A stretch of 61,651 bases of DNA from a virus, in the IMG/VR virus record IMGVR_UViG_3300038696_000188, positions 1 to 61,651 of that record; one strand, written 5' to 3'. The position numbers were made by a program, and so were the translations under genes. How positions within the stretch are numbered: the stretch's first letter is position 1; every line of letters starts with the position of its first letter. Below are positions 13,108 through 51,159 of the stretch, piece after piece. Below the pieces are notes generated by a model, which had not been told where the DNA came from, did no database searches, and saw nothing but the letters and a program-made list of their open reading frames with translations.

Positions 13108-13148
13108 GTTTGTAACCGTATTCCGCCAAATTGACGAGGAGCCCCCAC

Positions 13149-14876
13149 GTGGGTATTTTTAATAAGGAAGAGCCACCAGTAGCGAGCAACCTTGGTGCTG
13201 CCACTCGGAAGAGGAAATCTACTTCTGGCCGTTCCATGTCTCGTTCTACGCAGATGGTCTCTGCCCCTGGTTCTCAGCCTGGTCTTTTTTATAACACTCC
13301 TGCTCCTGCCGCTTATAACACTCCTAGGTCTTTAACTGCTGCTGCTGCGCAGGTTAAAACTAATGATAAGGGCGAGTTCGAGCAGTTTAAGGCTCGCCGT
13401 TCTGCTTCGTCTTCTGCTTGGCAGGCTGAGGCGTGGGAGTATTACGATGCTATTGGTGAGATTAAGTATGCTTTTAACCTGGTAGCTTCTGTTGTTTCTC
13501 GTATTCGGATTTATGCGGCTGCTGTTGATGACCCTAGCCAGGCTCCGATTCCTGTTGATGAGTCTAGGGTTGTTGACCCTAATCTTGCTGCTGCTGCTCA
13601 GCGTGCTTTGAATCGGTTGAACTCTGCGTATGGCGGACAGCCTGGTTTGTTGAAGGATGCGGCTCTTAACTTGGCTGTGTCTGGTGAGTGTTATTTGGTT
13701 CAGATGCCTGCCCGTAGGGGTACTGGTGAGCCTGAGTCTTGGGATATTCGTTCTGTTGACGAGGTCATTGTTGATGGTCGTGGGCAGTATAACGTTATTG
13801 GTCGCCGTGAGCAGGCGCAGGGTGGCAAGATGAGTGGGGGTGTTACTGCTCTTGGCAGTAAGGCTTTTGTTGGTCGGATTTGGCGTTCGCACCCTCGTTA
13901 TTCTGATGAGGCTGATAGTTCGCTTCGTGGTCTTTTGGACCTTTGTGCTGAGCTTTTGCTTCTTAACCGTACTTTCCGTGCTACTGCACGTTCTCGCCTT
14001 AACGCTGGTGCTTTGTATCTGCCTGATGGTCTTTCTGTCGCGGCTCAGGGTGACCCTGAACTTTACGACTCTGAGGATGGGATTGGCTCTGGTGTGACGG
14101 CTGAGGAGGCAGAGGACGAGTTCGAGGAGCAGTTGATTGATGCGATGACGACTCCGATTCGTGATGAGGAGTCTGCGTCTGCTGTTGTCCCACTGATTAT
14201 TCGTGGGCCTTCTGAGCTTGGTGATGCTATTAAGCAGTTTAAGTTTGAGCGTTCTTTTGACCCTGCTTTGGCTTTGCGTGCTGACCGTGTTTTGGAGCGC
14301 ATCATGCAGGGTCTTGATGTTCCTAAGGATATTGTTACGGGTCTGGCGAATGTGAAGTATTCGAATGCCCTGCAGATTGATGAGTCTTTGTATAAGGCTC
14401 ACATTGAGCCTCTCATGCTTCTTATTGTTGACGCTCTTACTGTTGTGTATCTTCGCCCGTATCTCACTGCTAATGGGTACACAGATGAAGAGGTTTCTCG
14501 TATTACTGTGTGGTATGACCCCTCAGCGGTCTCCACACGTAACGACAGGGCCACGGACGCTGATGCAGGGTTTGACCGTGGTGCAGTGTCTTCAGACGCT
14601 TGGCGACGCGCACACGGCTTCTCAGACCAGGATGCTCCGACACCTAACGAGGTTGCTCTTCGTATGCTCACTGAGCGTGGGGTTTTGACTCCTGAGTTGA
14701 CGGAGGCAATGCTTGCCGCTGTTTCGCCTGAGATGATGAACGCGGTGCGTGGTGCACAGCAGGCTGCGTCTGTTGCGCCTTTGCCTCCTGATGTTGAGGA
14801 TGCTTTGAAGAGCGCTTCTCCTGGTGCTGCTGGCGCATCTGATGCTGGCACTGATGATTCCGCTGGAATAGAATAG
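13149..14876 (+). CDS. Portal protein
   Basis: 575 aa from a GTG with GAGGAG 7 nt upstream; a TTG at 13131 would add six residues. Portals form the dodecameric ring through which DNA enters and leaves the head. Supporting features: a size typical for siphovirus portals, a central region with the wing/stem pattern (EAWEYYDAIGEIKYAFNLVA early, ALALRADRVLERIMQGLDVP then KDIVTGLANVKYSNALQIDE later) and a C-terminal clip-like tail. The VPKDIVTGL...YSNALQIDES segment is typical of actinophage portals. It is followed by the Dps-like gene and the giant protein. Confidence 0.85.
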   Translation: MGIFNKEEPPVASNLGAATRKRKSTSGRSMSRSTQMVSAPGSQPGLFYNTPAPAAYNTPRSLTAAAAQVKTNDKGEFEQFKARRSASSSAWQAEAWEYYDAIGEIKYAFNLVASVVSRIRIYAAAVDDPSQAPIPVDESRVVDPNLAAAAQRALNRLNSAYGGQPGLLKDAALNLAVSGECYLVQMPARRGTGEPESWDIRSVDEVIVDGRGQYNVIGRREQAQGGKMSGGVTALGSKAFVGRIWRSHPRYSDEADSSLRGLLDLCAELLLLNRTFRATARSRLNAGALYLPDGLSVAAQGDPELYDSEDGIGSGVTAEEAEDEFEEQLIDAMTTPIRDEESASAVVPLIIRGPSELGDAIKQFKFERSFDPALALRADRVLERIMQGLDVPKDIVTGLANVKYSNALQIDESLYKAHIEPLMLLIVDALTVVYLRPYLTANGYTDEEVSRITVWYDPSAVSTRNDRATDADAGFDRGAVSSDAWRRAHGFSDQDAPTPNEVALRMLTERGVLTPELTEAMLAAVSPEMMNAVRGAQQAASVAPLPPDVEDALKSASPGAAGASDAGTDDSAGIE

Positions 14877-14913
14877 GAAGTTTGTGGTGGGACACAAGTA
14901 TGTGGGGGGCGAT

Positions 14914-15384
14914 ATGCCTGATAATGCGAAACTTAAGCTTGCTAACAATGTTGCAATGAATCTTGGTAACGCTGTTGTTTTTACGTTTAAAGCTCAGGGG
15001 CATCATTGGAATGTTGAGGGTGAAGATTTTAGTCAGTTTCATAACTTTTTTGGTGAAATTTATGAGGATGTCCAGGATTCTATTGACCCGTTGGCTGAGA
15101 ATCTTCGTAAGTTGGATATGAAGGCTCCTAGTAATTTGATTGAGTTTGCTCAGTGTTCTTGTATCACTGATTCTCCTTCTTGCGATAATGTTTTTATGAT
15201 GTTGGAGGATTTGTATACTGCCAATAATCAGTTTATTTTGTCGCTTAATGAGGGGTTTAAACTTTCTGAGGCTGCTTCTGAGTATGGGATTAACGACTTT
15301 TATGGTGGGCGCATTGATATGCATAAGAAGTGGGAGTGGATGCTTCGCTCTCATTTGCGTGGGCAGCGGGGGCTTGGTTACTAA
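14914..15384 (+). CDS. Dps/ferritin-like protein
   Basis: 156 aa from ATG 14914 (GGGGGG upstream); GTG 14884 would add ten residues. The helix LANNVAMNLGNAVVFTFKAQ leads into the Dps signature HWNVEGEDFSQFH. Compared with Dps ferroxidase sites, His31, His43, Asp58 and Glu62 are kept, while the residue matching Asp67 of E. coli Dps is Gly47 with Glu48 next to it. A CSC motif and a second helical pair follow. Dps proteins oxidise and store iron and can bind DNA. Between portal and capsid genes it may be a virion component or protect packaged DNA; this is inference. Confidence 0.8.
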   Translation: MPDNAKLKLANNVAMNLGNAVVFTFKAQGHHWNVEGEDFSQFHNFFGEIYEDVQDSIDPLAENLRKLDMKAPSNLIEFAQCSCITDSPSCDNVFMMLEDLYTANNQFILSLNEGFKLSEAASEYGINDFYGGRIDMHKKWEWMLRSHLRGQRGLGY

Positions 15385-16310
15385 TGTCTGATTGGGATAA
15401 CTTGGAGCGTGGCAAGCCTTTTGTTGTTGCGTCTGCTTCTGTTGTCCCTAAGGGTAAGATTCCTACTCCGAAGGAGTTGTACGCATCATTGTCGGCAAAT
15501 AGTGCGGCTCGTGAGGAGCTCCGCGCTGAGGCCCCTGATGGTTACCACTATATGCCTGATGGCGAGCTGATGAAGGATTCGGAGCATGAGGCCGAGGAGT
15601 TTGCTGCTAAGCGGAATCGTACTAAGGCTCAGACTCCTGCCCCTAAGAAGGACCAGAAGAAGGGGTCTTCTGAGAATAAGAAGGGTTCTGCTGCTGGCGG
15701 TAAGAAAATTACTTTTTCTAAGTCAGTTGAGGCTTCTTTGCAAAATAAGGTTGCAGAGCACAATGAGAAGGCTTCTAAGGGGCGTAGAGCTTCTTTGGGG
15801 ATGTTGAAGGCCGTGTATCGACGGGGCGCTGGTGCTTATTCTACAAGTCACCGTCCTGGGCAGTCTCGTGGTGGTTGGGCTATGGCCCGTGTTAACGCGT
15901 TCCTTCGCCTGTTGAGGTCTGGTAAGCCTAGTAAAGCTGCTTACACTCAGGATAATGACCTTCTTCCTTCTGGCCACCCCAGGGCGTCTAAGAAGGGCGC
16001 GTCTGCTGATTCTTTGCTTGCTGGTGGCTCTTATTTAATTCCTGAGGAAAAGGATTTGGTTTCAGCTGCCGTTGAGCACGACCTTACTGTTTTGTTGAAA
16101 GATAAAGACGATTATTCTTCTACTGAAGAGGCTATACTTAATTTTACAGAGTACATGGGTCTTGGATATGAAACAGAGTTTGCGGTTAGAGCCAGTTGGC
16201 TTCGTGCGGTTCGAAATGGGGAGAGCCCGTTTCAGCGTGTTCGGATGCTAGCTACGATGACTTACGACAGTTTGGATGCAGACCTCCTGCCTAAGGAGAA
16301 CAATGCTTAA
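15384..16310 (+). CDS. Basic structural-module protein of unknown function
   Basis: 308 aa; ATG overlaps the previous stop (TAATG). Residues 60-120 are a Lys/Ser/Ala-rich linker. The centre has VYRRGAGAYSTSHRPGQSR, GGWAMARVNAFLRLLR and YTQDNDLLPSGHPRA, a conserved-looking block that I believe recurs in freshwater and actinobacterial phage head proteins, including ones fused to MuF or protease domains. The giant protein next to it repeats the end of this block in variant form (AQRNKVITASAAHFDLLPVGHPSS). It overlaps that gene by 8 nt. It is probably packaged or an assembly factor. Confidence 0.75.
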   Translation: MSDWDNLERGKPFVVASASVVPKGKIPTPKELYASLSANSAAREELRAEAPDGYHYMPDGELMKDSEHEAEEFAAKRNRTKAQTPAPKKDQKKGSSENKKGSAAGGKKITFSKSVEASLQNKVAEHNEKASKGRRASLGMLKAVYRRGAGAYSTSHRPGQSRGGWAMARVNAFLRLLRSGKPSKAAYTQDNDLLPSGHPRASKKGASADSLLAGGSYLIPEEKDLVSAAVEHDLTVLLKDKDDYSSTEEAILNFTEYMGLGYETEFAVRASWLRAVRNGESPFQRVRMLATMTYDSLDADLLPKENNA

Positions 16311-19300
16311 CATTTTCAATAGAGGGAAGAAGTCTTCTTCTCCCGCTAAAACTGCGGTAGAGAAAATTAATGAGTCTGCTCTTGCTTTGATTGTTTCAGC
16401 TAACGAGACGCAGCGTGGCGGTCGGTTGGTCACTAAGGGTGCCGCGTTGGAGATTGTTCGTCGTTCTTTGGTGAAGAATCGGGATGCTACTTTTTCGGTT
16501 AAAAAGTTTCACGCTTTAAAAGATGTTTCGGAATATGTATCTTTGGCGCAGCGTAACAAAGTTATTACTGCTTCTGCTGCCCATTTTGACTTGTTGCCTG
16601 TTGGGCACCCTTCTTCGGCTCGTTCTCACTCTATGTCTGATGAGGATGTGATGCGCTCTCGTGCTCGTTGGTATGCGGATGATTCTATTGTCACTGATGA
16701 AGTAGTTTATTCTTTGTTGGCTGCTGCTTTTGTTTCAGATTCTTCTTCTCCTGAGTACATTTATGCTGCAGCACGTTTGGCTGCTATGGGCGCGTCTCGG
16801 GTGCCTATTGATGCTTTGGTTGCGGCTTTGGGCTTCAATGATGGGGCTAACCGTGGGTTTTGGCGTAGGCAGCTTCGTGACCCTAAGGGTCGTTGGGCGA
16901 GAATGTTTGGCCTTATTAAGACTTTGGTTGATGTTGGTGGGCAGGTGCGTCCGCAGTACACAAAAATTGTTTCGGCTGACCCGAACACTAATAGGGTCCG
17001 CTCTATGCAGCCAGATGGCAGGATTATTGATAGCCCTGTTGAGTCTATTGATGCTGATGTTAAGGCTGTTATTCCTGGCGATGAGTCTCCCGATGGTATT
17101 GCTAGTTCGCCTGCCAGGTTTGAGACGGGTGACCCTATCACTAGTGTTGCTGATTTGGTTTATGTTGACGAGCCTCACGGTTTCTCTCGTAAGGGTGCAC
17201 CGTCTAGCCCTGAGGGGTTGGATGTGGATAAGTTTGAGCGTGTTTGGGAGGATGAACTCGGCAACTATCAGGTTATTCAGGGAAACTTTCGTGAGGGCGA
17301 GGGTTCTGAGTTTGTTGTTTCTCGTTTGGAGCAGGAGCAGGTTGTTCCAATTGGTGTTGGTAAGAACTGGTTTGATGCCGCAAAGATTGTGAGCGCCGAT
17401 GAGCTTAACTTCCAGAAGGGCGATGATGCAGAGCCAAACATCCCTGAGGGGTTTGACATTGGCCCAGGGGCTAGGGAGGATATTAATCCTGCGGATTTGA
17501 GTTCTGATGAGCTTGCTGCTGGCTATGGTTGGACTAAGTCTGATGGTAGGTACAATCGTGATGGGTTTGATATTGAGGAGATGCCAGATGGCAAGTGGCT
17601 TCTCACTGAGACTGGCGAGGGTGGCGAGTCTCGCGAGAGTGGACCTTTCGATGGTCCTGCCGATGCTTTTGAGCAGGGGCAGATTGATTCTGATGGTCCA
17701 GAGTTTGACCCTGGTGCTGTTGTAGATTTCCGTAATGACCAGGCTCCGCCTGAGACCCCCGAGCCTGTGGCACCGCAGGGGGAGGGGTTTTATGATGTTG
17801 ACCGTGGCCCGTATGAGCCGAAGGGGCCTGGGGATGGGGCGGAGTCTGAGGACTACACTGATGACCCGACCGAGATTGCTCAGCGGTTTGAGTCGAGTGA
17901 TTTAGAGAGTGCCCTTGAGGAGTCTGTTCGTAATGGTTCGGGGGAGGGGCTTCTTCCTTTCCAAGAGGGTGACGAGTATGTTCCCGCTGAGGCAATGTAT
18001 AACGCTCTTAAGGAGCAGGACCGCGACCCCGATGCTTTGTTGGATGACATTTACAGTGGCGATGTTGCTGTCCCTGACCAAGTAGACCTTCCTGGCGATG
18101 TCCAGGATTCTGTTGAAGACCAGGGTCCAATTACTGCTGAGCAGGTTGCCGAACTTCGTAGCGAGCAGGACCTCCCCGCTTTGCTTGACGGGCTCAATGA
18201 TGAAGAGCTTGCTGATGTTATCAATAACAAGGATTACAGTCCGTATCTTCCTGGTAACGATGAGTTTGATGTTCCTGAGGGCATGTATGAGATTGACTCA
18301 AACCCTTTTGACCCTAACGCTGATATTGCTCCTGATGACGCTCCTGAGGGCGCACCTAATAATCCTTATGATATGGCAATGGACATGTCTACTGAGGATT
18401 TGGAGAATGGCTTGCGGGGAGCTATTGCTGTCGACGAGGACTCTGACCGTCTTGGCTACTACCCGATTGTTGCTTTTGATGAGGACGGCGAGGAGTATTC
18501 TTATGATGCTCCAGCTGAGGCTTTCCGTGATGCCCTCCAGTTGCAGGGGGTTGACACCAACGAAATTTTGCGAGAAGCTTATTCAGATACCGAACCAACA
18601 CCTGACGAAGCAGCAGAGATGCTTGATGGTGAGAATATAGAGGAGACAGATAGTGGCGGAGAACCAGGAGCAGCAGACGGTGACGCAGGCGGACAGGGAC
18701 AGCGCGGCGAAGGCGTACCCGAACCAGACGTGGACGGACGAGGAAATCAAGATGGCGAAAGCCCTTGGTCATCTCTAGGTAACCCTCTCCCTGAGGCGGC
18801 TAGCGCCCAGGATATTAGGGATAGGGACCTCCCTACTCCCGAGATTTTTGAGCTTGACCCCGAGACTGATGCTGATGCTTTTGAGGCTCAGATGCAGGGC
18901 CTGAAGAAAAACAATGACTATGCTGCTTCGGTCTTTGTTTATGAGCCTGAAGAGTATCGCGAAATGCGGTTGTTCTCGACTGAGGATGGTACTGCTGGCT
19001 TTGCGTTGAAGCCTAGCGGGGACATTGTTTCTGTGTATGTTTATGGTAATTCACCTCATAAGAAAGCTACGGCTTCGATGCTTGCTCAGGCTGTGGAGTT
19101 GGGTGGGGACCGTCTTGACGCGTATGACACGGTTCTTCCAAAGATTTACGCTGAGGCTGGGTTTAAGCCTATCTCTCGCGTAACCTGGAATGATGCGTTT
19201 GCGCCCGAAGGTTGGGATAAGAAGACTTACGCTAAGTTCAATGAGGGTGAGCCTGATGTTGTTGCTATGGCGTATGACCCTGACCGTTTGGGTAGTAAGT

Positions 19301-22300
19301 ATGACCCAACGGAGGGCGAGGTTTTTGCTGATTACGATGAGGCTATGGCTGCTCGGGATGCTTCTATTGATGGTCCCGATGGCGTTGCTGAAAGCCCATT
19401 GGGTAGAACTTACGACATTTCCGATTGGGAGCAGGTAGGCGGGCAGTCTGGCTCTAATCAGGGCGGATTGTATCGTGATGCCGACGGCAATGAGTATTAC
19501 GTTAAGTTTCCGCCACAGAAGCAGCTCCGTAACGAGCTTCTCGCTTCGGCTCTTTATGAGAAGGTTGGTGTTCCTGTTGGTCGTGTCTATCTTGGGCGTG
19601 ACGCAGATGGCAAAGAGGTTCTTGTTTCTCCTATGCTTAAGAACTCCGAGTCTTTGCAGGACAATCTTGATAACCCTGACGCTATTGAGGGTGCTCGACT
19701 TGATTTTGCAGCGGATGCTTGGTTGAATAACTGGGATTCTGTTGGCCTTGTTTTTGATAACATGGTTATGGCTGACGAGAATGTGGCGGGTGTTGGCAGG
19801 CAGCTTTACCGTATTGATGCGGGTGGGTCTTTGTTGTTCCGTGCGCAGGGTGGCGACAAGGACCTCCCTGAGGATGTCAAGCTTATTGATACTTTGCGTA
19901 ACCCAGATATGAATCAGCAGGCTGCCACTATTTATGGTGACATGACTGATGAGGACATTAAGTTTAGTGTTCAGCGGATGCTCCCTGGCGCTACTGACGC
20001 AAATATTGATGAGCTTGTTGATTCAGCTTTCCCCGATGACACGGAGACTGCGGACTTGCTTAAGGAGCGCCTTAAGTCGCGCCGTGATTATTTGATTGAG
20101 CGTTTTAAGCCGTTGACTCCTGAGGCGTTGGACAATGCTGTTGCTGGCGAAGAGGAGACTGTCCGCTTTGATAGTTCGCCTGAGTTGGACAATGCTGTTG
20201 CGGGTGAGGAGCAGGCTTACTCTGAGCAGCTTAAGGAAGCTCAAGAGAATGTTGACGAGTCTTTCGCTGACAGTCCTTTAGTTCTTGATTTTGATGGTGA
20301 CGTTGAGGCTCAGGTTAATGATGCCATTGAGAATCAGAGGGACCTTGTCTTTTCGTATAACGGGGTTGACCGCATTGTTCGCCCTGTGTCGGTTGAGACG
20401 AACGAGAACACTGGCAATACAAACATTTCCGCTGTTGATGGTGATGGCAACTTTAAGAAGTTCACCATTTCGAAGATGTCTTCGGCACAGGATTCTGACA
20501 ATACTGTTGGTGACATTGTTGGCGAGGACTCTGGGGGCGATGAGATTGAGACTTCGGATGCTGTTGGTGCTGGTTATGAAGCAATCAAGAGCCAGTATTC
20601 TGCTGAGGAGCAGGAGGTTCTTGACAAGATTTTCTCGACTAAGGATGCAACTTCTGAGGAGCTCGAGAGCTTTGGTGAAGAGTCTGATGTAAATGATGAC
20701 ATAACAACAGACTATGTCCAGAAGATTGACTCTTACGACTCTGATGCCCCTGTGGTGTCAACTCCTGAGCAGAAGGTTATGGCTGACGCTGTTGAGGAGC
20801 TTATCAACCCTGAAGAGGGTGCGCAGGCCGCTGAGGCCAACGCAGCCGAAATTGCGGCGCTTTACGACAAGCTGGTTAATGGGATTAACTCGCCTGATAA
20901 CACGGAGTCCGACATTATTTGGCAGCGTGTTCAGGACGAGTACGAGGGAACTCTTCTGCCCAACGGACACATAGTTGTGTCTTCGACGATGCATGGTGAC
21001 CGTCGCTATGATGTTGTGGTTCGCCGTAATAACGACAACACGTTCCACATTTACCACCGTGTCACTTACCCCGATGGCTCAACTAAGGTTAAGGAGATGG
21101 GCGGTCAGGGCTGGCATTCAGCTGAGGCTCTGTTCTCTCGCGTTGACAATCAAATCTTTAATTCAAAGAGCCGCCCGAAGACAACGGTTAACAAGGGTCT
21201 AAAGCAGGAGAACGACAACACTCTCTACGCCGACACCTCAACTCCGACTCAACCTGGTAGCTATGTTGCTGCTGATGGTTCTGTGGTGAAGAAGGGTGAC
21301 CGTATTACGGTTGTTAACCCCACTCACAGCAAGTTTGGTGTGGGGGGCCGTATTGTTAGTACGAAACGTAAGTACAGTTCTGATGGCAAGAAGTACACAG
21401 ACTATCTCCGCGTTCGCTATGACGATGGCACTAAGAACAATATTGTTTCGACGAGTGTTGTTCCCGAGGGCAACGCGACTCCTGCTCCGTCCACGTCGTC
21501 TAAGACACCAAAAAAGCCAGCAGTTAAGACGCCAGTTACGTCGCCCGCTAAGACGAAATCTGGTGCTCCAATTCTTCCGCCACCTCTTGGAACAAAACCA
21601 TTTGGTCCTACTGTTACAGCGGCAAACGCTGTTCCTGGTGACCGTCTCGACCTCAAGGAGTCTTTAGCGCTCCCGCTAGGTTCGGTTGTGAGGTCTGGTG
21701 AGGGGCGCTTCTACTCACTATTTAATTCAGAGAACAACGTATGGGTAGACATCTCTAATGACTTTACGCATAATCTCACAGAGAGCGACCGAGCAGTGTA
21801 CATCGCACCTAACAAGGACGCGGCTCTTAACGAGGTGGGTCCCGAGGTTGAAAATCCTTTAGAGAGCGGTGCCTTACCCGCACCTTCTTCGTGGACTGTT
21901 GCGACAACCAACGCCGAGGGGGATGCACTCGATGAGTTTACGCTTCCTTCTGGTGACTTGGTAGTTGACGCTAGACTTTATATGCACAAAAAGAATCGTC
22001 ACTATTTGAATAAAGACTTTGCGAAGCAGTATGGTTTTGATGGTACGGGCAAACTGCAAGCTGGACTGCAAAAGCTTTTTACTTCACAGAAGAAACCGAC
22101 AAAAGTTCCCTCGACTGGTTTGGTTGAAATCGTGCCAGGATTTATTGTCATGGACGCAAGTCTTCCATCGACCGTGGCTGACATGAGTAAAACACAATAT
22201 ATCGTGGACGATGTTGATTTTAATACTGGAGAGTTTAGTGTGGTTGCTATTACAGGACCTGACAGAACTAAAAGGTTTGTTGGTCTCAGTGGGAAAGATG

Positions 22301-23919
22301 TGATGGCAACGTCTGGATTTTTGAGCCCTTTGGATGCTGACACTAGGTTTGGCGTTAAAATTGCTGACAAACCTATGCGGGAAATTAAAGAAGCTAAACT
22401 TTTTATTGAGAACCCTGGATTCTATAGCGACGCGAATATGGTCAATGGCGCTGGCGTTGACGAGCCAGAGTTAGAGTCCCTGCCTGACTGGGGGCAAGCT
22501 CCTGAGGGCACTGTTTCTACAGAAGATGCGCTCAACCAGCTTCGCCAGTGGGATTCGTTGGGCGATGCACGGCAGACTACTCAAGGTATTTATACCTTGA
22601 TGGACTCAGTTTCTATTGAGGATGGGCAAGTAAGGATTCAACGAGTAGTAGACGCTGATGGCAACAAGCGAGTCAGGCTTACAGGAAAACTTACGAGTTG
22701 GTTTGGTCGAAACAAATTTATTTCTGATGTCGATAGCGGAAAGATTTCTGCAAAAGAGTCTGCGGGAATTGATTTTAACTTTTACGAGCAAACTGATGAT
22801 GGTCTTAGTTATTCTGCTACTCCTGTTGGCGGCTTTGAGATTGATGACGCACAAACAGGAGCAACCTATTCGTATAAAACTTCTCAGGGCTATGATGTCG
22901 CGGTTCACAGGGCTCTAACTGCCGAGGAAACATTGGGATTGTCCGAGAATGAAAAAGAGCTTGACTATTTCAGTACTCACGAGAGTGGCTATGACCGAAG
23001 TGTCTCTCTTCACAACATGTTTGATGTTCTTTTGCCCGAGAATGCTTCGTCTTCCGATATTGAGCAGGCGTTGCAAGAAATGGGAATTACACAATCGCGG
23101 CCTGCTACTGATTTGGATGTTCGCACAATTATGGAGAACAAGCTTATTACTTTGTTTGGTCAGAAACGGGACGGAACCAAGAACGCATCTGGGTTGCTTC
23201 GTGAACAAGAGCTGCAAAAAATCAAAGAAACTTACAATATTACTGTAGATGATTTAATTATTGAGAGTGATAAGACTACTAGGAGTAGGCCGATAATTAA
23301 GCTTTCCCCAGAGGCGGCTAAAAATGTTGTAGAAAGTTCTGGTATTAAGCACTTTTATCACCAGATGGGCACGAGTAGTTTGCTAGGAAACCTTGACGAC
23401 ACGGCCAATGCTATTGTTGATTTGTTTGAGGATGGGGCTTTAGCCAGTAGTACCTCTAGGCTTATTACGGGGGGCAACACAGGGCAGTCATCAAACGACG
23501 ATATATTCCGTCCTGGCGCTGACTACACTTTTTTGTATCTCGTAAATGATTCTAACGCAAAAGACGCTGGGCACTGGAACGCTGACCCGACTTATGTTAG
23601 CTCTGTCAGCTTTATCATTGACCCTCAAGCTATGCTTGAGAGGCTTGACTTTTACGCAAACGAGGGAGACCTGTGGGGGATGATGCAGAATAAGGTGTTT
23701 GACCCGCTCAAGGCTTTGGAGGGGGCAAATTCTTCGGCAGAAGCATTATTTAAAACAGATGTCCCTCTTAGTGCTATAAAAGCTATGTCGGTGACTCCCG
23801 AGCTTCGCGCACGTGTCCTAAAGATTTTGGCGGAGAGAGGGATTGACTTTATCAATGGAAACGATGTTCAGCAGATGATGAGCACCCCCGCTTCCGATTG
23901 GGATTGGAGTAGAAAATAG
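16303..23919 (+). CDS. 2538-aa multidomain virion-associated protein (polyvalent-like)
   Basis: ATG 16303 has AAGGAGAA upstream. Domains seen: a head-protein-like N-terminus with DLLPVGHPSS; about 182-204 the block WRRQLRDPKGRWARMFG; about 400-830 acidic repeats; about 833-990 a possible acetyltransferase-like fold (KKATASMLAQAVELGGDRLD); about 1037-1267 a kinase-like domain (GGLYRDADGNEYYVKFP, ADAWLNNWDSVGLVFDN, YRIDAGGSLLFRAQG); about 1330-1400 a WYL-like fragment (AIENQRDLVFSYNG); about 1560-1630 an unknown domain; about 1650-1720 an SH3/KOW-like domain and a Pro/Thr/Lys linker; then a 700-aa end with a possible ADP-ribosyltransferase-like region. Position and architecture suggest a protein packed in the capsid and delivered into the cell. 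The domain calls come from patterns only. Confidence 0.8.
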   Translation: MLNIFNRGKKSSSPAKTAVEKINESALALIVSANETQRGGRLVTKGAALEIVRRSLVKNRDATFSVKKFHALKDVSEYVSLAQRNKVITASAAHFDLLPVGHPSSARSHSMSDEDVMRSRARWYADDSIVTDEVVYSLLAAAFVSDSSSPEYIYAAARLAAMGASRVPIDALVAALGFNDGANRGFWRRQLRDPKGRWARMFGLIKTLVDVGGQVRPQYTKIVSADPNTNRVRSMQPDGRIIDSPVESIDADVKAVIPGDESPDGIASSPARFETGDPITSVADLVYVDEPHGFSRKGAPSSPEGLDVDKFERVWEDELGNYQVIQGNFREGEGSEFVVSRLEQEQVVPIGVGKNWFDAAKIVSADELNFQKGDDAEPNIPEGFDIGPGAREDINPADLSSDELAAGYGWTKSDGRYNRDGFDIEEMPDGKWLLTETGEGGESRESGPFDGPADAFEQGQIDSDGPEFDPGAVVDFRNDQAPPETPEPVAPQGEGFYDVDRGPYEPKGPGDGAESEDYTDDPTEIAQRFESSDLESALEESVRNGSGEGLLPFQEGDEYVPAEAMYNALKEQDRDPDALLDDIYSGDVAVPDQVDLPGDVQDSVEDQGPITAEQVAELRSEQDLPALLDGLNDEELADVINNKDYSPYLPGNDEFDVPEGMYEIDSNPFDPNADIAPDDAPEGAPNNPYDMAMDMSTEDLENGLRGAIAVDEDSDRLGYYPIVAFDEDGEEYSYDAPAEAFRDALQLQGVDTNEILREAYSDTEPTPDEAAEMLDGENIEETDSGGEPGAADGDAGGQGQRGEGVPEPDVDGRGNQDGESPWSSLGNPLPEAASAQDIRDRDLPTPEIFELDPETDADAFEAQMQGLKKNNDYAASVFVYEPEEYREMRLFSTEDGTAGFALKPSGDIVSVYVYGNSPHKKATASMLAQAVELGGDRLDAYDTVLPKIYAEAGFKPISRVTWNDAFAPEGWDKKTYAKFNEGEPDVVAMAYDPDRLGSKYDPTEGEVFADYDEAMAARDASIDGPDGVAESPLGRTYDISDWEQVGGQSGSNQGGLYRDADGNEYYVKFPPQKQLRNELLASALYEKVGVPVGRVYLGRDADGKEVLVSPMLKNSESLQDNLDNPDAIEGARLDFAADAWLNNWDSVGLVFDNMVMADENVAGVGRQLYRIDAGGSLLFRAQGGDKDLPEDVKLIDTLRNPDMNQQAATIYGDMTDEDIKFSVQRMLPGATDANIDELVDSAFPDDTETADLLKERLKSRRDYLIERFKPLTPEALDNAVAGEEETVRFDSSPELDNAVAGEEQAYSEQLKEAQENVDESFADSPLVLDFDGDVEAQVNDAIENQRDLVFSYNGVDRIVRPVSVETNENTGNTNISAVDGDGNFKKFTISKMSSAQDSDNTVGDIVGEDSGGDEIETSDAVGAGYEAIKSQYSAEEQEVLDKIFSTKDATSEELESFGEESDVNDDITTDYVQKIDSYDSDAPVVSTPEQKVMADAVEELINPEEGAQAAEANAAEIAALYDKLVNGINSPDNTESDIIWQRVQDEYEGTLLPNGHIVVSSTMHGDRRYDVVVRRNNDNTFHIYHRVTYPDGSTKVKEMGGQGWHSAEALFSRVDNQIFNSKSRPKTTVNKGLKQENDNTLYADTSTPTQPGSYVAADGSVVKKGDRITVVNPTHSKFGVGGRIVSTKRKYSSDGKKYTDYLRVRYDDGTKNNIVSTSVVPEGNATPAPSTSSKTPKKPAVKTPVTSPAKTKSGAPILPPPLGTKPFGPTVTAANAVPGDRLDLKESLALPLGSVVRSGEGRFYSLFNSENNVWVDISNDFTHNLTESDRAVYIAPNKDAALNEVGPEVENPLESGALPAPSSWTVATTNAEGDALDEFTLPSGDLVVDARLYMHKKNRHYLNKDFAKQYGFDGTGKLQAGLQKLFTSQKKPTKVPSTGLVEIVPGFIVMDASLPSTVADMSKTQYIVDDVDFNTGEFSVVAITGPDRTKRFVGLSGKDVMATSGFLSPLDADTRFGVKIADKPMREIKEAKLFIENPGFYSDANMVNGAGVDEPELESLPDWGQAPEGTVSTEDALNQLRQWDSLGDARQTTQGIYTLMDSVSIEDGQVRIQRVVDADGNKRVRLTGKLTSWFGRNKFISDVDSGKISAKESAGIDFNFYEQTDDGLSYSATPVGGFEIDDAQTGATYSYKTSQGYDVAVHRALTAEETLGLSENEKELDYFSTHESGYDRSVSLHNMFDVLLPENASSSDIEQALQEMGITQSRPATDLDVRTIMENKLITLFGQKRDGTKNASGLLREQELQKIKETYNITVDDLIIESDKTTRSRPIIKLSPEAAKNVVESSGIKHFYHQMGTSSLLGNLDDTANAIVDLFEDGALASSTSRLITGGNTGQSSNDDIFRPGADYTFLYLVNDSNAKDAGHWNADPTYVSSVSFIIDPQAMLERLDFYANEGDLWGMMQNKVFDPLKALEGANSSAEALFKTDVPLSAIKAMSVTPELRARVLKILAERGIDFINGNDVQQMMSTPASDWDWSRK

Positions 23920-24491: not shown

Positions 24492-24791
24492 ATGATGATT
24501 TCTAAAGGTAAAAAAGTTGTTGACTTTGTCGAAGTTTACTTTTCTGATAAAACACAAGAGCTTATTGCTTTAGTTTACGTTCTTAAGGGTGTTGGGGAGT
24601 ACATCCGTCAGGACGGCATGTGGCTACCTTTTGAAGATATGCCTGAAGAAATTTATGATGGCTCTGAATATGTTGTCCTGGAGAAGGCGGACGCACTTGA
24701 TATGCAACTAAAAGAAAAGTTTGACGAAGGCGATGCAATCTCTCGAGATGAAGTTTTCGCTAAAGGAACGGATAAGTACGATGATATCTAG
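24492..24791 (+). CDS. Hypothetical 99-aa protein of the head module
   Basis: ATG after ATAGGAGATATG. Contains ALVYVLKGVGEYIRQDGMW followed by LPFEDMPEEIYDGSEYVV, the same Tyr-x-x-Asp-Gly-x-Trp beta module as in the neighbours. Overlaps the start of the protease gene by 11 nt. No known family. Confidence 0.75.
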   Translation: MMISKGKKVVDFVEVYFSDKTQELIALVYVLKGVGEYIRQDGMWLPFEDMPEEIYDGSEYVVLEKADALDMQLKEKFDEGDAISRDEVFAKGTDKYDDI

Positions 24792-27700
24792 CGAGCTGAC
24801 CTACAAAGGTCGCAAGGGTGACAAGGTCCTTTATCTCAAGAGTGACTTTGGGGTGGTTATTGAGGAGTCCACTAATCTTGTTCTAGAGGTGGGCCCAGCC
24901 GAGGCTCTAATGGCCTCTTCTCGCTGGTTGAATCTTAAAAATAAAAAGCCCACACCTGTGTCTGAAGAGTTGGCTAATGCCGCATTGACAGAGCTTGACA
25001 TCACTGTGGTTGCGTCTGGCGACCGTATGTATACTATTCCCAAGGGCGCGGTTGCTGAGGCAAAGCGTGGGTTGGAATGGCGCAAGGAGGGGAAGCGCGG
25101 TGGCACCCCTGTGGGCCTTAATAGCGCTAGAACTATTGCTAAGGGCGGCCAGATTGGTATCCAGAAGGTTCGCCACATTGCTAAGTATTTTCCCCGTCAC
25201 GAGGTAGATAAGAAGGGTAGGGGCTACAAGCCTGGCCAGGATGGCTACCCTTCTAATGGTCGAATTGCTTGGGCTCTTTGGGGTGGGGATGCTGCTCAGC
25301 GTTGGGCCGCTTCTATTGTTGAGTCTGAAAACAAAAATAAGTCAAATGCTGTAATCACCGCAGGTATGTTTGAAAACTATGACACTGAGGAAAGAGTGGA
25401 CTACGCTTCTTTTAACACGGTGTCTGCTAGTTCTGAGTTTTATATTAGGATTCGCTTGGACACGGGGAGCATTGACCGTCTCTATAAAGTCAACGAAGAC
25501 GGCACTTGTTTTGTGTGGGATGACGGTTGCTGGGAAGATTTGGGGAATGTCCAGCACGACTTTTTTACGTATGATAAGTCGCTCGATGAGCCTTACGACA
25601 CTGTAAAAAAGGTTCACGTATCTGTTGACCGCGAGAGTGCAATTAGCATTTCGGCAATGTTTGACACTGCGCCTTTTGATGGTGTCTCTCTTAAGAGTCT
25701 TAACTTTGAAGAGACGGAACTTTTTGAGAGTGCTATGCCTGGGGTGGACTGGGTGCTGTTGGACCAACTTAGTTCTGACACGGTCGAGGAGTACGAGGAA
25801 GAGGAAGAGTACGACGACGGTCTTATGGCGTCCGGTGTTGCGGAGTTTGCTGAGGCAGAAACCGAGGACACGACTCCAGGGGTTTACAGCCCTGAGGAGC
25901 GCTCTGAGGCGGCCTCTTCTCAGGTTAGGGATAAGCTTGGAAGATTCGCACAGAACGGCTCACGAGTTGTTATTGGAGGAAACTATGACTATCAGGGAAC
26001 AATTACTGCACAAGATTCTGATGCTGGAACAATTAGTGTGGAGCTGGATAACGGAAGTACGGTTGAGGTACCAGGAAACACGACGCAGGAAGTAAGCACC
26101 TTTGAGCCTATTTCTCAGGTTCCCGCAAGTAACTTGGATTTTTCGGGTATTTTGGGTGAGCCACGTACTCCGATTGACCAGGGTGGGGCAACGCTCCCAG
26201 GGACACTTCCTGCTCTTAACAGAGATAGTTTAGATTCTGTTGTTTCTAGTTGGGGCAGCTGGGTTGCGGACCAACGTCTTGCACCTGAATACGAGGCTAC
26301 TCCTGCAGCGCCTTTTATTCCTAAGGCTGTGCCTGATATTAATACTGCTATGGGACGGTACTACCAGGGGGCGTTTAACCCAGACGGTAGCGCTAAGTCT
26401 AGTTGGAACCCAGCTATTGCCCCTAACGTTGCAAATGAGCCTCTTCTTCGTAACTGGCTTGACAATGTTTACGGTAAAAGTACTGGTGGGTACCAGGGGG
26501 GTTGGTACAAGCCTACCGTTCCCGTTGAGGCTAAAAAATCTAAAGAAGAGGTTTACAGTAAGGGTAACCAACAAGCTTGGGACAAGAAGTACAGCATTTA
26601 TGCTTCTGCACTAGTCGCTGCTGGAGATGCTCCCGCCCTCACCCCAGAGACTTCTGACGTTGCGCCTATGTATATGGCTATTGTTTCACCTGATGACCCT
26701 CAGGCTGTTCTTGAGCTTATTTCTTTGGTTCCTGCTACAGCAAAGACTATCCAACCAGCTGCATTTAAGCGGTCTGATAAGAAGTGGGTTCAGGACGATA
26801 AAATTCTTGCAGATTTGAATAGTCCCACTCCTCCGCCTGTAATTGTTTTGGATAACGAGAATTTGTCTGTTGTTTTGGAGCAGGTCGATGGGGGCCCAGT
26901 AACTGCGAGCGCCTTCCATGCTTTGACAAACAATGAAATATTGCGGGCTATTCAAGCTGCTGGTGGTGCTGACCGCAATCGTGGAAATGCCGAAAACTTG
27001 CGCCGCTACTGGACTGTAGGCAAGGGTGGTCTAAAAATCCGCTGGGGCACTGATGGTGACTGGACTCGTTGTAATCGCTACCTTAAGAAGTACATGGGTC
27101 CTCGCGCTAAAGGTTATTGTGCTCTCCGTCACAAGGAGATGAATGGTGTTTGGCCTGGTGACAAGCGCAATGTTGGCAAGAAGAAGGCTCTGCGTTCTTC
27201 TGGTGAGATGGAGACTTTAAAGACTTCCCAAACTATTATCGAGGAGTTTACACTCCGCGCTAGGGCGGAGTCTGCTCGGTCTCGCCTAGTTGGACGTTTG
27301 GGCCCTAAGCCTACAAAGCATGGTTCACGTTTTGTTATTCCTTTGGTTATCCCCGAGGCTACCGAAACTGGTGATGGACGCATCTTTGAAAGAGACTCTA
27401 TTTCAATGCGCAATCTTCCTCTCCCGTTAATGTGGCAGATTAAGAGCGGGCAGGGCCACGATGGCTCTGTTGTTGTGGGACAAATTATTTATATGGAAAG
27501 AACCGCAGAGGGTGTCGGGAATGCTTATGGCTATTTTGATACTGGAAGCTTTGGCCAAGAAGCAGAGCGCCTTGTTCGTCATGGTTTTATTCGTGGCGTG
27601 TCAGCTGATATGGATAAATTCGAGGCAGATGAGCCCGAAATTATTGAAATTGAAGACACCGAGAACGGCGGGACAGTAGAAAAAGAATCAGGTAAAATAA

Positions 27701-29688
27701 ATATTACAAGTGCAAGAATTATGGCTGTAACAATTGTGCCTAAACCTGCATTTCAAGAATGCTACATTCAGGTCGTTGACGAGAGTGACGACGTTGAGGA
27801 GGAAGTAATGCAGCCAGACGGTATCTACGTCGATGGGGTGAACCCACTTGACGCATCCGCTTTGGTGGCTTGCGGCATGGTGGCTGGGGCTATCCCCGTT
27901 GAGCCTCCAAAGACTTGGTTTAACAGCCCGAAGCTTGCTAGGGCAACTCCGCTCACTATTACTGATGAGGGTAGAGTTTTTGGTCATATTGCTGCTTGGC
28001 ATGTTGACCACATTGGTATGTCTAGCGGCACACGCCCGCCTCGTAGTCGCTCTAACTATGCTTATTTCCACACTGGAGTCCTTAGGACAGAGGATGGCGA
28101 CAGTGTCCCTGTTGGCCAGCTGACCCTTGCTGGCGGTCACGCTGGTATGGAGGCTTCGGCTCAGCAGGCAGTTCGTCACTACGACGACACAGCTTCCGCA
28201 TTTGCCGATGTTACTGCTGGCGAGGACGCTTACGGTATCTGGGTTGCTGGTTCCTTACGTCCTGGGACCACCCCTGAGCAAATCCGTGCTGCCCGTGCAT
28301 CGGCACCTTCTGGTGACTGGAGGCCCATTAAGGGTCGTCTTGAGCTGGTTGCTGTGTGCCAGGTGAATGTTCCTGGTTTCCCGATTGCCCGTGCTCGTGT
28401 TGCTTCTGGTCAGGTTATGGCTTTGGTTGCTGCTGGAGCGAGCACTCTTGCCCAGATGAAGTATGACCCCCTTGCGGAGCTTAATGCAAAGGTAAGCGAG
28501 CTTGAGTCTGCACAGTACTCGCCTAAAGCTAGCGAGGCTGCAGAGAGGTTCTCGGCAATGCGTCAAGAAGTTTTTGCTCTGCATGCTGCTAGAGCGTCTG
28601 CAAGAGTTAATAAGGTTAAAAAGGTTAAGGACACCATCAAAGAGGGCGACTGGGCCTACATGATTGAGATGATGGACGACAACCCAGAGAGCGAAATGTC
28701 TGTTGTTTCTCGTCGTGTCCGTGAGCGTCTTGCTAAGGAAGGCAAGGCTCTTCCTGATGGTTCGTATCCAGTTCGTAACGCAAATGATTTGAAGAATGCT
28801 ATTCAAGCATATGGTCGCTCTAAACCTGGGGCGCGTGCTGCTGTGCGCAAGCACATTATGAAAAGTGCTAAGCGTCTCAATAAGCAGGACTTGATTCCAG
28901 CTAGATGGAGCACTCAGTATTCGGCTGAAGGATTAGAGCTTTCTTTACATGAAAGAGTTGCCGCTGTGGCTGCTTTCCTCTCAAATCCTAATGAATTGCG
29001 AATTAGAGCTGAGTTGGCCTCTAAAAATTTAAATTCTGAAGCACTTTTTTCAGAAGAAGTTTTGACTGCTGCTGCCGCTGATGACGAGGATTTGAGGGAC
29101 CTAAAGCCTGAAGAGATTGAGGCACTTAAGCAGGGGGCTAGACAGCAGAAAGCTGACGCAGGAAAAAGCGATAGCGATGCTAAGTTTACGCCTGACACTC
29201 AGCCTCGTGACACTGCGGGGAAGTTTCGAAAGGTTTTAGCCCGATTAAAGAGTGACCTTGGCTCTTCTGGCTTGCAGGATGTGGTTGAGAAGGTTGAAGA
29301 GGCAGAGAATTTCGATAACGCAGGGGATTACGAGCAAGCATCTAAATCTGCAGAGGAATTGATTGGAGTTATCGACCGATTGGACGCTAAAGCCTTGAAT
29401 CCTGAAGCTTTGGAGAACATCCGCAACACTGCTGGTCAGCTGGGCGAAGTGATTGCCAATCTTCCTTTTGCTTTTGGGGCGGAGGCAGAGAAGATTCGCT
29501 ACAGCGACGTCCCACCTGCTCTTCAAAAATTAATGGAAGAGATGATTAAACGTGTTGAGGAGAAGATTGGGGAAGAGGACGCAGCCATTGCTACAGAAGA
29601 GCTGAAGAGCTTTATGTCTGGTGCCGACTACTTTAACCAGTCTGAGATTTCGTCTGAGATGTCGAAGCTTTTACGTCTTCTGACGTAA
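24781..29688 (+). CDS. 1635-aa prohead protease fusion protein
   Basis: ATG 24781, inside the end of the preceding gene. Regions in order: about 95-178 a phage assembly domain (GLEWRKEGKRGGTPVGL to RIAWALWGGD); 230-370 an acidic beta region; 383-445 RDKLGRFA plus an SH3-like domain; 750-800 a block with WTRCNRYLKKYMG and GYCALRHKEMNGVWPG; 814-1007 the prohead protease, with His893 (GQGHDGSVVVG) and Ser941 (IRGVSADMD) as likely catalytic residues; 1014-1230 the protease-associated domain (VFGHIAAWHVDHIGM to VNVPGFPIAR); 1284-1377 a DUF6582-like block (LPDGSYPVRNANDLKNAIQA, DLIPARWS); about 1476 RDTAGKFRK. Prohead proteases cleave scaffold and capsid during maturation. The size is far above the usual 200-400 aa, so self-cleavage into several pieces is likely. 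Confidence 0.85.
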   Translation: MISSELTYKGRKGDKVLYLKSDFGVVIEESTNLVLEVGPAEALMASSRWLNLKNKKPTPVSEELANAALTELDITVVASGDRMYTIPKGAVAEAKRGLEWRKEGKRGGTPVGLNSARTIAKGGQIGIQKVRHIAKYFPRHEVDKKGRGYKPGQDGYPSNGRIAWALWGGDAAQRWAASIVESENKNKSNAVITAGMFENYDTEERVDYASFNTVSASSEFYIRIRLDTGSIDRLYKVNEDGTCFVWDDGCWEDLGNVQHDFFTYDKSLDEPYDTVKKVHVSVDRESAISISAMFDTAPFDGVSLKSLNFEETELFESAMPGVDWVLLDQLSSDTVEEYEEEEEYDDGLMASGVAEFAEAETEDTTPGVYSPEERSEAASSQVRDKLGRFAQNGSRVVIGGNYDYQGTITAQDSDAGTISVELDNGSTVEVPGNTTQEVSTFEPISQVPASNLDFSGILGEPRTPIDQGGATLPGTLPALNRDSLDSVVSSWGSWVADQRLAPEYEATPAAPFIPKAVPDINTAMGRYYQGAFNPDGSAKSSWNPAIAPNVANEPLLRNWLDNVYGKSTGGYQGGWYKPTVPVEAKKSKEEVYSKGNQQAWDKKYSIYASALVAAGDAPALTPETSDVAPMYMAIVSPDDPQAVLELISLVPATAKTIQPAAFKRSDKKWVQDDKILADLNSPTPPPVIVLDNENLSVVLEQVDGGPVTASAFHALTNNEILRAIQAAGGADRNRGNAENLRRYWTVGKGGLKIRWGTDGDWTRCNRYLKKYMGPRAKGYCALRHKEMNGVWPGDKRNVGKKKALRSSGEMETLKTSQTIIEEFTLRARAESARSRLVGRLGPKPTKHGSRFVIPLVIPEATETGDGRIFERDSISMRNLPLPLMWQIKSGQGHDGSVVVGQIIYMERTAEGVGNAYGYFDTGSFGQEAERLVRHGFIRGVSADMDKFEADEPEIIEIEDTENGGTVEKESGKINITSARIMAVTIVPKPAFQECYIQVVDESDDVEEEVMQPDGIYVDGVNPLDASALVACGMVAGAIPVEPPKTWFNSPKLARATPLTITDEGRVFGHIAAWHVDHIGMSSGTRPPRSRSNYAYFHTGVLRTEDGDSVPVGQLTLAGGHAGMEASAQQAVRHYDDTASAFADVTAGEDAYGIWVAGSLRPGTTPEQIRAARASAPSGDWRPIKGRLELVAVCQVNVPGFPIARARVASGQVMALVAAGASTLAQMKYDPLAELNAKVSELESAQYSPKASEAAERFSAMRQEVFALHAARASARVNKVKKVKDTIKEGDWAYMIEMMDDNPESEMSVVSRRVRERLAKEGKALPDGSYPVRNANDLKNAIQAYGRSKPGARAAVRKHIMKSAKRLNKQDLIPARWSTQYSAEGLELSLHERVAAVAAFLSNPNELRIRAELASKNLNSEALFSEEVLTAAAADDEDLRDLKPEEIEALKQGARQQKADAGKSDSDAKFTPDTQPRDTAGKFRKVLARLKSDLGSSGLQDVVEKVEEAENFDNAGDYEQASKSAEELIGVIDRLDAKALNPEALENIRNTAGQLGEVIANLPFAFGAEAEKIRYSDVPPALQKLMEEMIKRVEEKIGEEDAAIATEELKSFMSGADYFNQSEISSEMSKLLRLLT

Positions 29689-49350: not shown

Positions 49351-51159
49351 TTGCCAGTATTAGTTGACGTAGATAGTCAAAAGTCTCACATTGTAATTAA
49401 CGCTGATTGGCGCTATAAAGAGCTGTGTAAAAGCCTCCCTGGCTCGTCTTGGTCAACAAAAGAGCAGGTGTGGCGTCTCCCCCTGAGTTGGGCAAGCTGC
49501 CTCGCTTTGCGCTCCACATTTAAAGATGACTTGACTATTGGAGCCGAGTTGACCGCTTGGGCAGAGAACCTCGTAACCACTCGTATACAGCCCTCAGTGG
49601 CCCTCAGGGAGCTTGAAGAACATGAGGGGGACGAAGACCTATTCCCCCATCAAAGGGCGGGAGTTGCCTTCTTGGCGACCGCTAGGAGGGCTCTCTTGGC
49701 TGACGAGCCAGGGCTTGGCAAAACTGCTCAGGCCATCCGTGCTTTGAAGCGCCTAAAAGACCAGGGAGAGGGAGTATTTCCAGCTTTGATTGTTTGCCCC
49801 AACACGTTAAAGAAGACATGGGAGCGTGAGTTTGAGAAGTGGTGGCCTGAAGTTACAATTCAAGTTGTGAAGGGCACAGCCACCCAGCGGAAGAAACAAT
49901 TTGAAATTGGCGTTGAGAGTAGCGTTGATGTTTTTGTTGTGAACTGGGAGTCACTTCGTACGCACTCAAGGCTTGCGCCATATGGCTCAGTTGCTCTTAC
50001 TCGGTGCGCAGAGTGCGGTGGGCACGATGAGGGCATTAGCATCACTAGATGTGAAGTCCACCTTCGTGAACTAAACCACATTGATTTTAAAGCCGTAGTT
50101 GCTGATGAGATTCACCGCTCCAAGGACCCCAAGTCAAAACAATCCAGAGCGCTGTGGTCTGCAACAGGAGATGCCGATGTTCGATTTGCTTTGACGGGAA
50201 CCCCTATTGCAAATAACGTAGTGGACCTGTGGAGTATTTTGCACTGGATTTCCCCAGGGGACTGGCCAAGCAAAACAAAGTGGATGGAAAGAATGGTTGA
50301 CACTATTCTTAACGCATTTGGTGGTCTACTTGTTCTTGGGGTGAAGCCACACATGCAAGACGAATTCTACAAAACTGTGAACCCGAAGATGCGTCGAATG
50401 CTCAAGCAAAAAGTTTTACCCTGGTTGCCCGAAATGGTGTTTGAGCGTAGAGACATTGAGATGTCAACTAAGCAGAAAAAAGCTTATGTTCAGATGCGCG
50501 AGACTATGATGGCTGAGCTTGAGGGTGGGGAGCTAATCACGGCTCCTAGCGTTTTGACCCAGACAACCAGGCTATTGCAATTTGCCAGCTCCTACGCAGA
50601 GATGGCAGTGAGCGAAACCACAGGGGAGCAAAAAACTCTTCTCTCAGAGCCTTCTTGTAAAGTTGATGCTCTGATGGCTGACATCAAGGCAAAAGATTTT
50701 GGTGACGACTCTGTGGCGGTATGTGCTGTTTCGCGTCAGCTCATTGAGCTACTAAGTGCAGCTATGACCAAAGCTGTTATCCCTCATGGACTTATTACGG
50801 GTGCCCAAGACGAAGACCAGCGTCAGCAAGCAATTGATGATTTTCAGTCTGGTAAAACTAAATGGATTCTCTACACGGCGCAGGCTGGAGGTGTGGGCGT
50901 GACTCTCACAGCAGCCCGTCGTTTGGTAATGCTACAGCGCCCATGGTCTTTGGTAGACCATAAGCAGGCCCTCGACCGCGTTCACCGCATTGGCTCTGAG
51001 ATTCACGACTCTATTATCGTTACGGACTACATTACCGAGGGGACCATCGAGGAACGTGTTCTGCAAGTTTTAGAAACTAAAGCAGACAATTTTGAGCAGA
51101 TTGTGCGTGATAAGGACCAGCTCCTCACCATGCTAAAAGAAGAGAAGGGCAAGAAATGA
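49351..51159 (+). CDS. SNF2-type DNA helicase with inserted zinc knuckle
   Basis: 602 aa; TTG after AAAGAGG. The N-terminus has a HARP-like segment (STKEQVWRLPLSWASCLAL). Motifs: FPHQRAGVAFLATARRALLA with DEPGLGKT (I), VVADEIHRSKD (II, DEIH), ALTGTPIANN (III), then IYTAQAGGVGVTLTAARRL-type motif V and LDRVHRIGSE (VI). Between I and II lies a zinc-like insert (RCAECGGHDEGISITRCEVH, about 217-240). It is likely a branch-remodelling helicase that works with the resolvase and nuclease next to it. It overlaps the next gene by ATGA. Confidence 0.9.
   Translation: MPVLVDVDSQKSHIVINADWRYKELCKSLPGSSWSTKEQVWRLPLSWASCLALRSTFKDDLTIGAELTAWAENLVTTRIQPSVALRELEEHEGDEDLFPHQRAGVAFLATARRALLADEPGLGKTAQAIRALKRLKDQGEGVFPALIVCPNTLKKTWEREFEKWWPEVTIQVVKGTATQRKKQFEIGVESSVDVFVVNWESLRTHSRLAPYGSVALTRCAECGGHDEGISITRCEVHLRELNHIDFKAVVADEIHRSKDPKSKQSRALWSATGDADVRFALTGTPIANNVVDLWSILHWISPGDWPSKTKWMERMVDTILNAFGGLLVLGVKPHMQDEFYKTVNPKMRRMLKQKVLPWLPEMVFERRDIEMSTKQKKAYVQMRETMMAELEGGELITAPSVLTQTTRLLQFASSYAEMAVSETTGEQKTLLSEPSCKVDALMADIKAKDFGDDSVAVCAVSRQLIELLSAAMTKAVIPHGLITGAQDEDQRQQAIDDFQSGKTKWILYTAQAGGVGVTLTAARRLVMLQRPWSLVDHKQALDRVHRIGSEIHDSIIVTDYITEGTIEERVLQVLETKADNFEQIVRDKDQLLTMLKEEKGKK

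Follow-up and report, generated by a model that had tools for sequence, protein, structure and literature searches.

The giant gene and its reading frame

The window analysed here, all 61,651 nucleotides (nt) of IMG/VR virus record IMGVR_UViG_3300038696_000188, carries a giant gene at 16303-23919 whose product, P0001, is very probably a polyvalent effector that is carried in the virion and ejected with the DNA. The frame encodes 2538 amino acids (aa) without an internal stop, and the protein computed from it has a mass of 276 kDa, an isoelectric point of 4.3 and no cysteine. As an earlier note on this DNA had stated, it is the largest open reading frame (ORF) of the window, filling about one eighth of the bases (12.4% by our count), and it lies between portal and protease genes. 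The stop-to-first-ATG ORF, 16276..23919 (2547 aa), includes this frame; we prefer ATG16303 as the start because an AAGGAG motif sits 4 nt before it, and rejected the start at 16276, which has no ribosome site and a poorer context. A 7.6 kb open frame is beyond chance and a 65% identical orthologue occupies the equivalent gene position in its own contig; the giant ORF is therefore real. A megablast search against known phages gave no match for the window DNA. The gene and the parts of its product are as follows.

16293..16298 (+), AAGGAG ribosome-binding site of the giant gene, read from the sequence
16303..23919 (+), giant gene, putative polyvalent protein P0001
16375..16650 (+), DUF5824-like N-terminal domain, residues about 25-116, homologous to the upstream gene product
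16870..17290 (+), RDxKGRFAxM module, residues about 190-330, candidate capsid-targeting module
17860..18060 (+), acidic linker module 1, residues about 520-586, modelled as helix-helix-strand-strand-helix-helix
18364..18582 (+), acidic linker module 2, residues about 688-760, immediately before the payload slot
18643..19404 (+), variable payload slot, residues about 781-1034, with differing segments in 39 non-redundant relatives
18730..19370 (+), probable GNAT-like acetyltransferase domain, residues 810-1022 (phrog_2563, E 5e-9)
19405..20140 (+), HipA/CtkA/PI4K-type kinase domain, residues 1035-1279 (K1068, E1078, D1145, N1153, D1172)
20260..20500 (+), WYL-like domain, residues 1320-1399, modelled as helix plus beta
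21247..21474 (+), KOW/SH3-like module, residues 1649-1724 (DSIF KOW Z 8.8, NusG Z 7.8)
23311..23898 (+), DarT-like ADP-ribosyltransferase (ART) domain, residues 2337-2532 (H2353, R2386, Y2408, E2480)

Kinase and ADP-ribosyltransferase folds

Two AlphaFold models built from real alignments (mean predicted local distance difference test score 77-78) cover residues 480-2538, and the domain-by-domain structure prediction that the earlier note had proposed recovered kinase, KOW/SH3 and DarT-like folds over this span. Modelled residues 1029-1279 resemble CtkA at Z 16.0 (223 residues), PI4KIIalpha at 13.4, LepB at 12.4, HipT at 12.2 and HipA at 10.2, so that the models confirm a HipA/CtkA-type kinase fold for the domain at 1035-1279. 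This fold is accompanied by the lysine, glutamate, catalytic Asp/Asn and metal-binding aspartate of a kinase; the five residues, with roles assigned by motif, are invariant in 34 of 34 sequences. The window kinase shares fold and catalytic set with the HipA/HipT, CtkA, PI4KII and LepB kinases, but it lies inside a giant phage protein and is 10-18% identical to them. HipA-type kinases act on host proteins.

The C-terminal domain is confirmed in the models as a DarT-like ADP-ribosyltransferase fold, with DarT1 (8baq) at Z 10.1 (root-mean-square deviation 3.9, 155 aligned residues) and DarTG at 9.4; all top Foldseek matches of residues 2337-2532 were likewise DarT (E 0.003-0.02). Its putative catalytic residues are conserved across the family, H2353 and E2480 in 19/20 sequences and R2386 and Y2408 in 20/20. 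Matched by order and spacing rather than by residue-level structure alignment, they are compatible with H13, R51, Y71 and E160 of DarT2 and with H17, R52 and E152 of DarT1 (PMC9967889, PMC11543638). We call the domain DarT-like and do not file it as DarT because it fails the PF14487 cut-off (E 0.16, 12.1 against 22.5 bits; best relative E 0.0014). It has the fold and H/R/Y/E residues in common with DarT of the DarTG toxin-antitoxin systems, but is only 12-16% identical to it and is fused within a giant encoded at a virion locus. Given its DarT-like fold, the domain may plausibly act on nucleic acid.

The kinase-like and SH3-like regions of the earlier note, and the ADP-ribosyltransferase that it had listed as possible, are thus borne out by fold. 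Sequence-profile searches of the PDB with the kinase, N-terminal, C-terminal and ART alignments gave nothing significant, and fold comparison did better. The lack of fold matches for the GNAT, WYL-like and N-terminal regions carries no weight, since these regions were not fold-searched singly.

A payload slot that exchanges unrelated domains

Between linker module 2 and the kinase, the chain opens into a slot, which we surveyed in 39 non-redundant sequences holding both anchors, the window included. Its length ranges from 5 to 1003 residues and is at least 200 residues in 25 of the 39; in another 14 the slot is essentially empty, some of these having an ART-like stretch, recognised by motif, further upstream. 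In the window the slot holds the GNAT-like domain, and in the 65% identical relative (L001, IMG/VR UViG 3300025617_001075) an unrelated 204-aa segment (L001 448-1035) that matched neither Pfam nor phage proteins. All six long payloads tested carry an RNase_T-type exonuclease and one of the six also passes for Nudix; the exonuclease payloads belong to freshwater relatives, and Nudix motifs were seen by eye in further payloads. Two more relatives (L055, L100) have ART-like slot segments by motif, not by Pfam. The slot is a site of cassette exchange within a conserved chain.

Near-absence of cysteine

Cysteine is depleted throughout the family. The 63 non-redundant giants hold 77 cysteines in 180,879 residues (0.43 per 1000), as compared with 11.8 per 1000 in the other plus-strand ORFs of 300-1500 aa at the same loci, a comparison set in which some ORFs may be spurious. 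No cysteine occurs in the 21,595 residues of the 25 payload segments, and the kinase domains have 1 in 17,553 residues in viruses against 55 in 13,186 in homologues from bacterial genomes. The window's virion proteins are generally cysteine-poor (3.2 per 1000). Very large, cysteine-free proteins that are ejected with DNA are known from N4, whose virion RNA polymerase has 0 cysteines in 3500 residues, and from T7 (gp15, 0/747; gp16, 0/1318), against 11-23 per 1000 in the replication enzymes of these two phages; for N4-like virion polymerases the absence of cysteine has been tied to injection in print (PMC3915230). Cysteine-free giant size is what P0001 has in common with these proteins; it shares no domain with the N4 polymerase or with T7 gp15 and gp16, which are internal core proteins of an ejection apparatus.

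GNAT, WYL-like and N-terminal regions

Residues 810-1022 are probably a GNAT, judging from the PHROG match, a modelled strand/helix order that fits this fold and a profile comparison with GNATs over the acetyl-CoA-binding signature (hhalign P 6e-4; controls 0.16-0.19). A PDB profile search returned a GNAT entry at a weak E of 0.058, and single family members touch Acetyltransf_7 with no Pfam pass. The possible acetyltransferase of the earlier note is therefore moderately supported. For the WYL-like segment support is weak: the PF13280 E values of relatives are 3e-4, 0.019 and 0.054, the best of them at 21.1 bits against a cut-off of 21.8, and the window segment, tested through its 86% identical L001 copy, gave no PF13280 match.

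The earlier note had also called part of the protein head-protein-like. P0001 has no MuF, VG15 or other capsid Pfam domain, while Caron's minor capsid protein does match, and a MuF fold for the N-terminus was rejected for want of a Pfam MuF match. What stands of that claim is homology: positions 3-89 of profile A10 match residues 133-222 of the DUF5824 gene product (iE 5.5e-7 at Z=50000), positions 151-282 match the N-termini of Big4 gp74, Pumpernickel gp82 and Mimi gp77, and positions 167-245 match the window's protease fusion. The RDxKGRFAxM module is a candidate for head targeting. The acidic linking regions were correctly noted, with a net charge of -15 to -26 per 100 residues over residues 301-900; linker modules 1 and 2 cross-match in L001 (E 2e-4).

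Relatives and gene neighbourhood

Whole-length relatives are the IMG/VR contig L001, with 65% trunk identity, and WJZ48510.1 (3289 aa) of the lake phage DSL-LC01, an actinobacteriophage in the view of its authors (PMC10611076). Both have the orthologous trunk, gene position, kinase, WYL-like region and DarT-like C-terminus of P0001, and both are annotated merely as hypothetical. They differ at the slot, where L001 has its 204-aa domain and DSL-LC01 has an ART-like stretch (by motif) in or near it and no GNAT. The source phage is a phage of freshwater bacteria.

When the domain alignments were used for scans, 453 kinase and 236 GNAT relatives came up in viral contigs and 57 kinase relatives in bacterial genomes. 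The kinase almost always lies within chains of 1500-4200 aa, and most relatives are one chain of 2300-3400 aa; in three loci (L097-L099) a separate GNAT ORF, 65-70% identical to the window GNAT, stands beside an ORF of 890-966 aa at the equivalent place. In Gordonia phages the kinase protein gene directly follows the portal, and in Yersinia phage fHe-Yen8-01 the same kinase and an ADP-ribosyltransferase share one protein annotated 'phage particle associated', for which the literature library searched gave no virion proteomics. By our reading of the sequences, the kinase pairs in bacterial genomes with ART, MuF-like or Nudix stretches. Pseudomonas chromosomes (L214, L215, L221, L231) hold the same kinase domain, which in L214 appears to be flanked by ART-like and Nudix-like stretches. 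The GNAT family is fused to MuF-like minor capsid proteins and also occurs with LPD22 and ART-PolyVal in a 3125-aa polyvalent protein of Limnohabitans phage DC33; the DC33 record (L010) has 39 kb, and its Inoviridae label looks wrong.

The neighbours of the giant gene are these.

13131-14876, portal gene (phrog_776, E 2e-105)
14884-15384, Dps/ferritin-like gene between the portal and giant genes (PF00210, E 2.5e-19)
15330..16310 (+), DUF5824 gene, conserved partner upstream of the giant gene (PF19141, E 4e-8; synteny)
24721..29688 (+), head-maturation protease fusion of 1655 aa, conserved neighbour downstream (phrog_859, phrog_18402)

The DUF5824 and giant genes overlap by 8 nt, and the giant gene is followed by two small ORFs, the protease fusion and genes for the major head protein, a head-tail adaptor and a tape measure. 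Relatives show the same order, portal-(Dps)-DUF5824-giant-small gene(s)-protease, which places the giant among late virion genes, as described for polyvalent proteins. Dps/ferritin-like homologues occupy the equivalent place in several relatives (L097-L099, L082). The protease fusion has PHROG matches named portal, head maturation protease and structural protein, and 941 related phage records; in DSL-LC01 its several parts are individual genes, three in number, named 'capsid maturation protease'.

At the equivalent place, Microbacterium phages Big4 and Pumpernickel and Arthrobacter phage Mimi carry different giants (1756-2709 aa). Mimi gp77 (L014 3128-11257), in the portal-protease slot, has 2709 aa, a UvrD-type helicase and 0 cysteine. 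Pumpernickel gp82 (L015 8670-15377; 2235 aa) also has 0 cysteine, and a weak PI3_PI4_kinase match at its C-terminus (E 7e-5) adds a second kinase-like part, of a different sort, to the same slot.

A probable polyvalent effector and its alternatives

Polyvalent proteins were proposed by Iyer et al. 2017 to be injected with DNA (PMC5512222). They are large phage proteins that have ART, kinase and GNAT parts among their several domains, and their genes lie close to those of virion proteins; the earlier note had likened the design of P0001 to theirs. This reading is supported by the joining of unrelated enzymes in a single polypeptide (the kinase and the DarT-like ART recognised by fold, the GNAT-like domain from profile match and topology), by the virion-gene location, the exchangeable payload and near-zero cysteine, and, among relatives, by kin of the kinase and GNAT in MuF minor-capsid and LPD22 plus ART-PolyVal proteins and by the particle-associated annotation. 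P0001 departs from the published examples in that its kinase is HipA/CtkA/PI4K-like with a C-lobe, not the truncated kinase described there, in its DarT-like ART and fixed trunk with one internal payload slot, and in having neither an LPD nor a zincin match. It also resembles MuF polymorphic toxins (PMC5576092), in which effector domains are carried with head-gene products and GNATs occur on MuF-like minor capsid proteins, but it lacks a MuF domain and its variable part is internal. Three features are new here: a fixed trunk that bears both a HipA/CtkA-type kinase and a DarT-like ART, one internal slot whose content is exchanged, and a near-total lack of cysteine that extends over the family and its payloads.

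From the computed reading frame, synteny, folds, conserved catalytic residues, slot exchange and cysteine depletion, we infer packaging, ejection, catalysis and targets as follows. P0001 would be synthesised late alongside the head proteins and packed into the head, possibly through its N-terminal DUF5824 and RDxKGRFAxM modules as a candidate signal. It would then leave the head with the DNA and enter the host, its flexible, acidic, cysteine-free chain being suited to threading through the tail. In the host cell, the KOW/SH3 and WYL-like modules may contact nucleic acid or protein, and the kinase, the DarT-like ART and the slot GNAT may modify targets in the host (or DNA) as soon as infection begins.

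Several points weigh against this account. A whole-protein Pfam search of P0001 gave nothing above cut-off, and the sequence evidence for the GNAT and WYL calls is weak. T4 Alt (3/682) and P1 DarB (9/2255) enter with phage DNA yet hold cysteine, and T4 gp34, a fibre that stays outside, has 0 in 1289 residues, so the absence of cysteine is supportive only. That P0001 would act on host defences specifically, as opposed to general takeover, is something we infer.

The portal-protease position, the large conserved trunk and N-terminal modules common to the protease fusion and other giants would suit a giant scaffold or connector, a mainly structural or assembly protein whose enzyme-like folds are relics or act in assembly. 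We consider this improbable, as kinase and ART retain their catalytic residues amid sequence that diverges to 25-45% identity, and a scaffold has no need of a slot that swaps unrelated enzymes. A toxin or exclusion factor made late, which would act in the producing cell or be freed at lysis against competitors without DNA-coupled ejection, has a published precedent in the MuF toxins of temperate phages (PMC5576092), and a resemblance to polymorphic toxins lies in the changing cassettes and in the ART, GNAT and kinase domains. In P0001, however, the variation is internal and not C-terminal, Pfam found no secretion domain or MuF, and both the cysteine depletion and the annotation of the Yersinia phage relative favour virion carriage; this alternative appears very improbable.

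A P0001 that the head-maturation protease cuts up into individual virion enzymes would be compatible with a virion-carried polyvalent effector. The protease gene lies two small genes downstream, the acidic linkers are flexible and L097-L099 encode the GNAT separately, but no cleavage motif was identified and most relatives are a single chain, which leaves a polyprotein unlikely, if worth keeping in mind. A more specific form of the effector reading, which we offer very tentatively and think doubtful, is a virion-delivered DNA-ADP-ribosylating machine, in which the KOW and WYL-like modules would hold the DarT-like domain on host or incoming phage DNA, the HipA-like kinase would stall the host, and the trunk would be a general carrier whose slot is reloaded with new enzymes, each free of cysteine to allow its passage through the tail. 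If so, the absence of cysteine would become a usable sequence marker of ejected effectors.

With a virion-carried polyvalent effector as the preferred reading, the polyvalent idea would gain a natural experiment, in which related phages exchange unrelated enzymes at a defined slot of a conserved carrier chain. A HipA-type kinase and a DarT-like ADP-ribosyltransferase would be added to the proposed injected-effector repertoire of actinophage-like viruses. The family-wide lack of cysteine, swapped-in enzymes included, may turn the observation on the N4 polymerase into a testable limit on tail ejection, with known exceptions.

Elsewhere in the window, positions 49351-51159 encode a helicase-like protein that matches phage DNA helicases (phrog_62, E 1e-113) and, weakly, a DarB-like antirestriction family (phrog_10089, E 6e-7).

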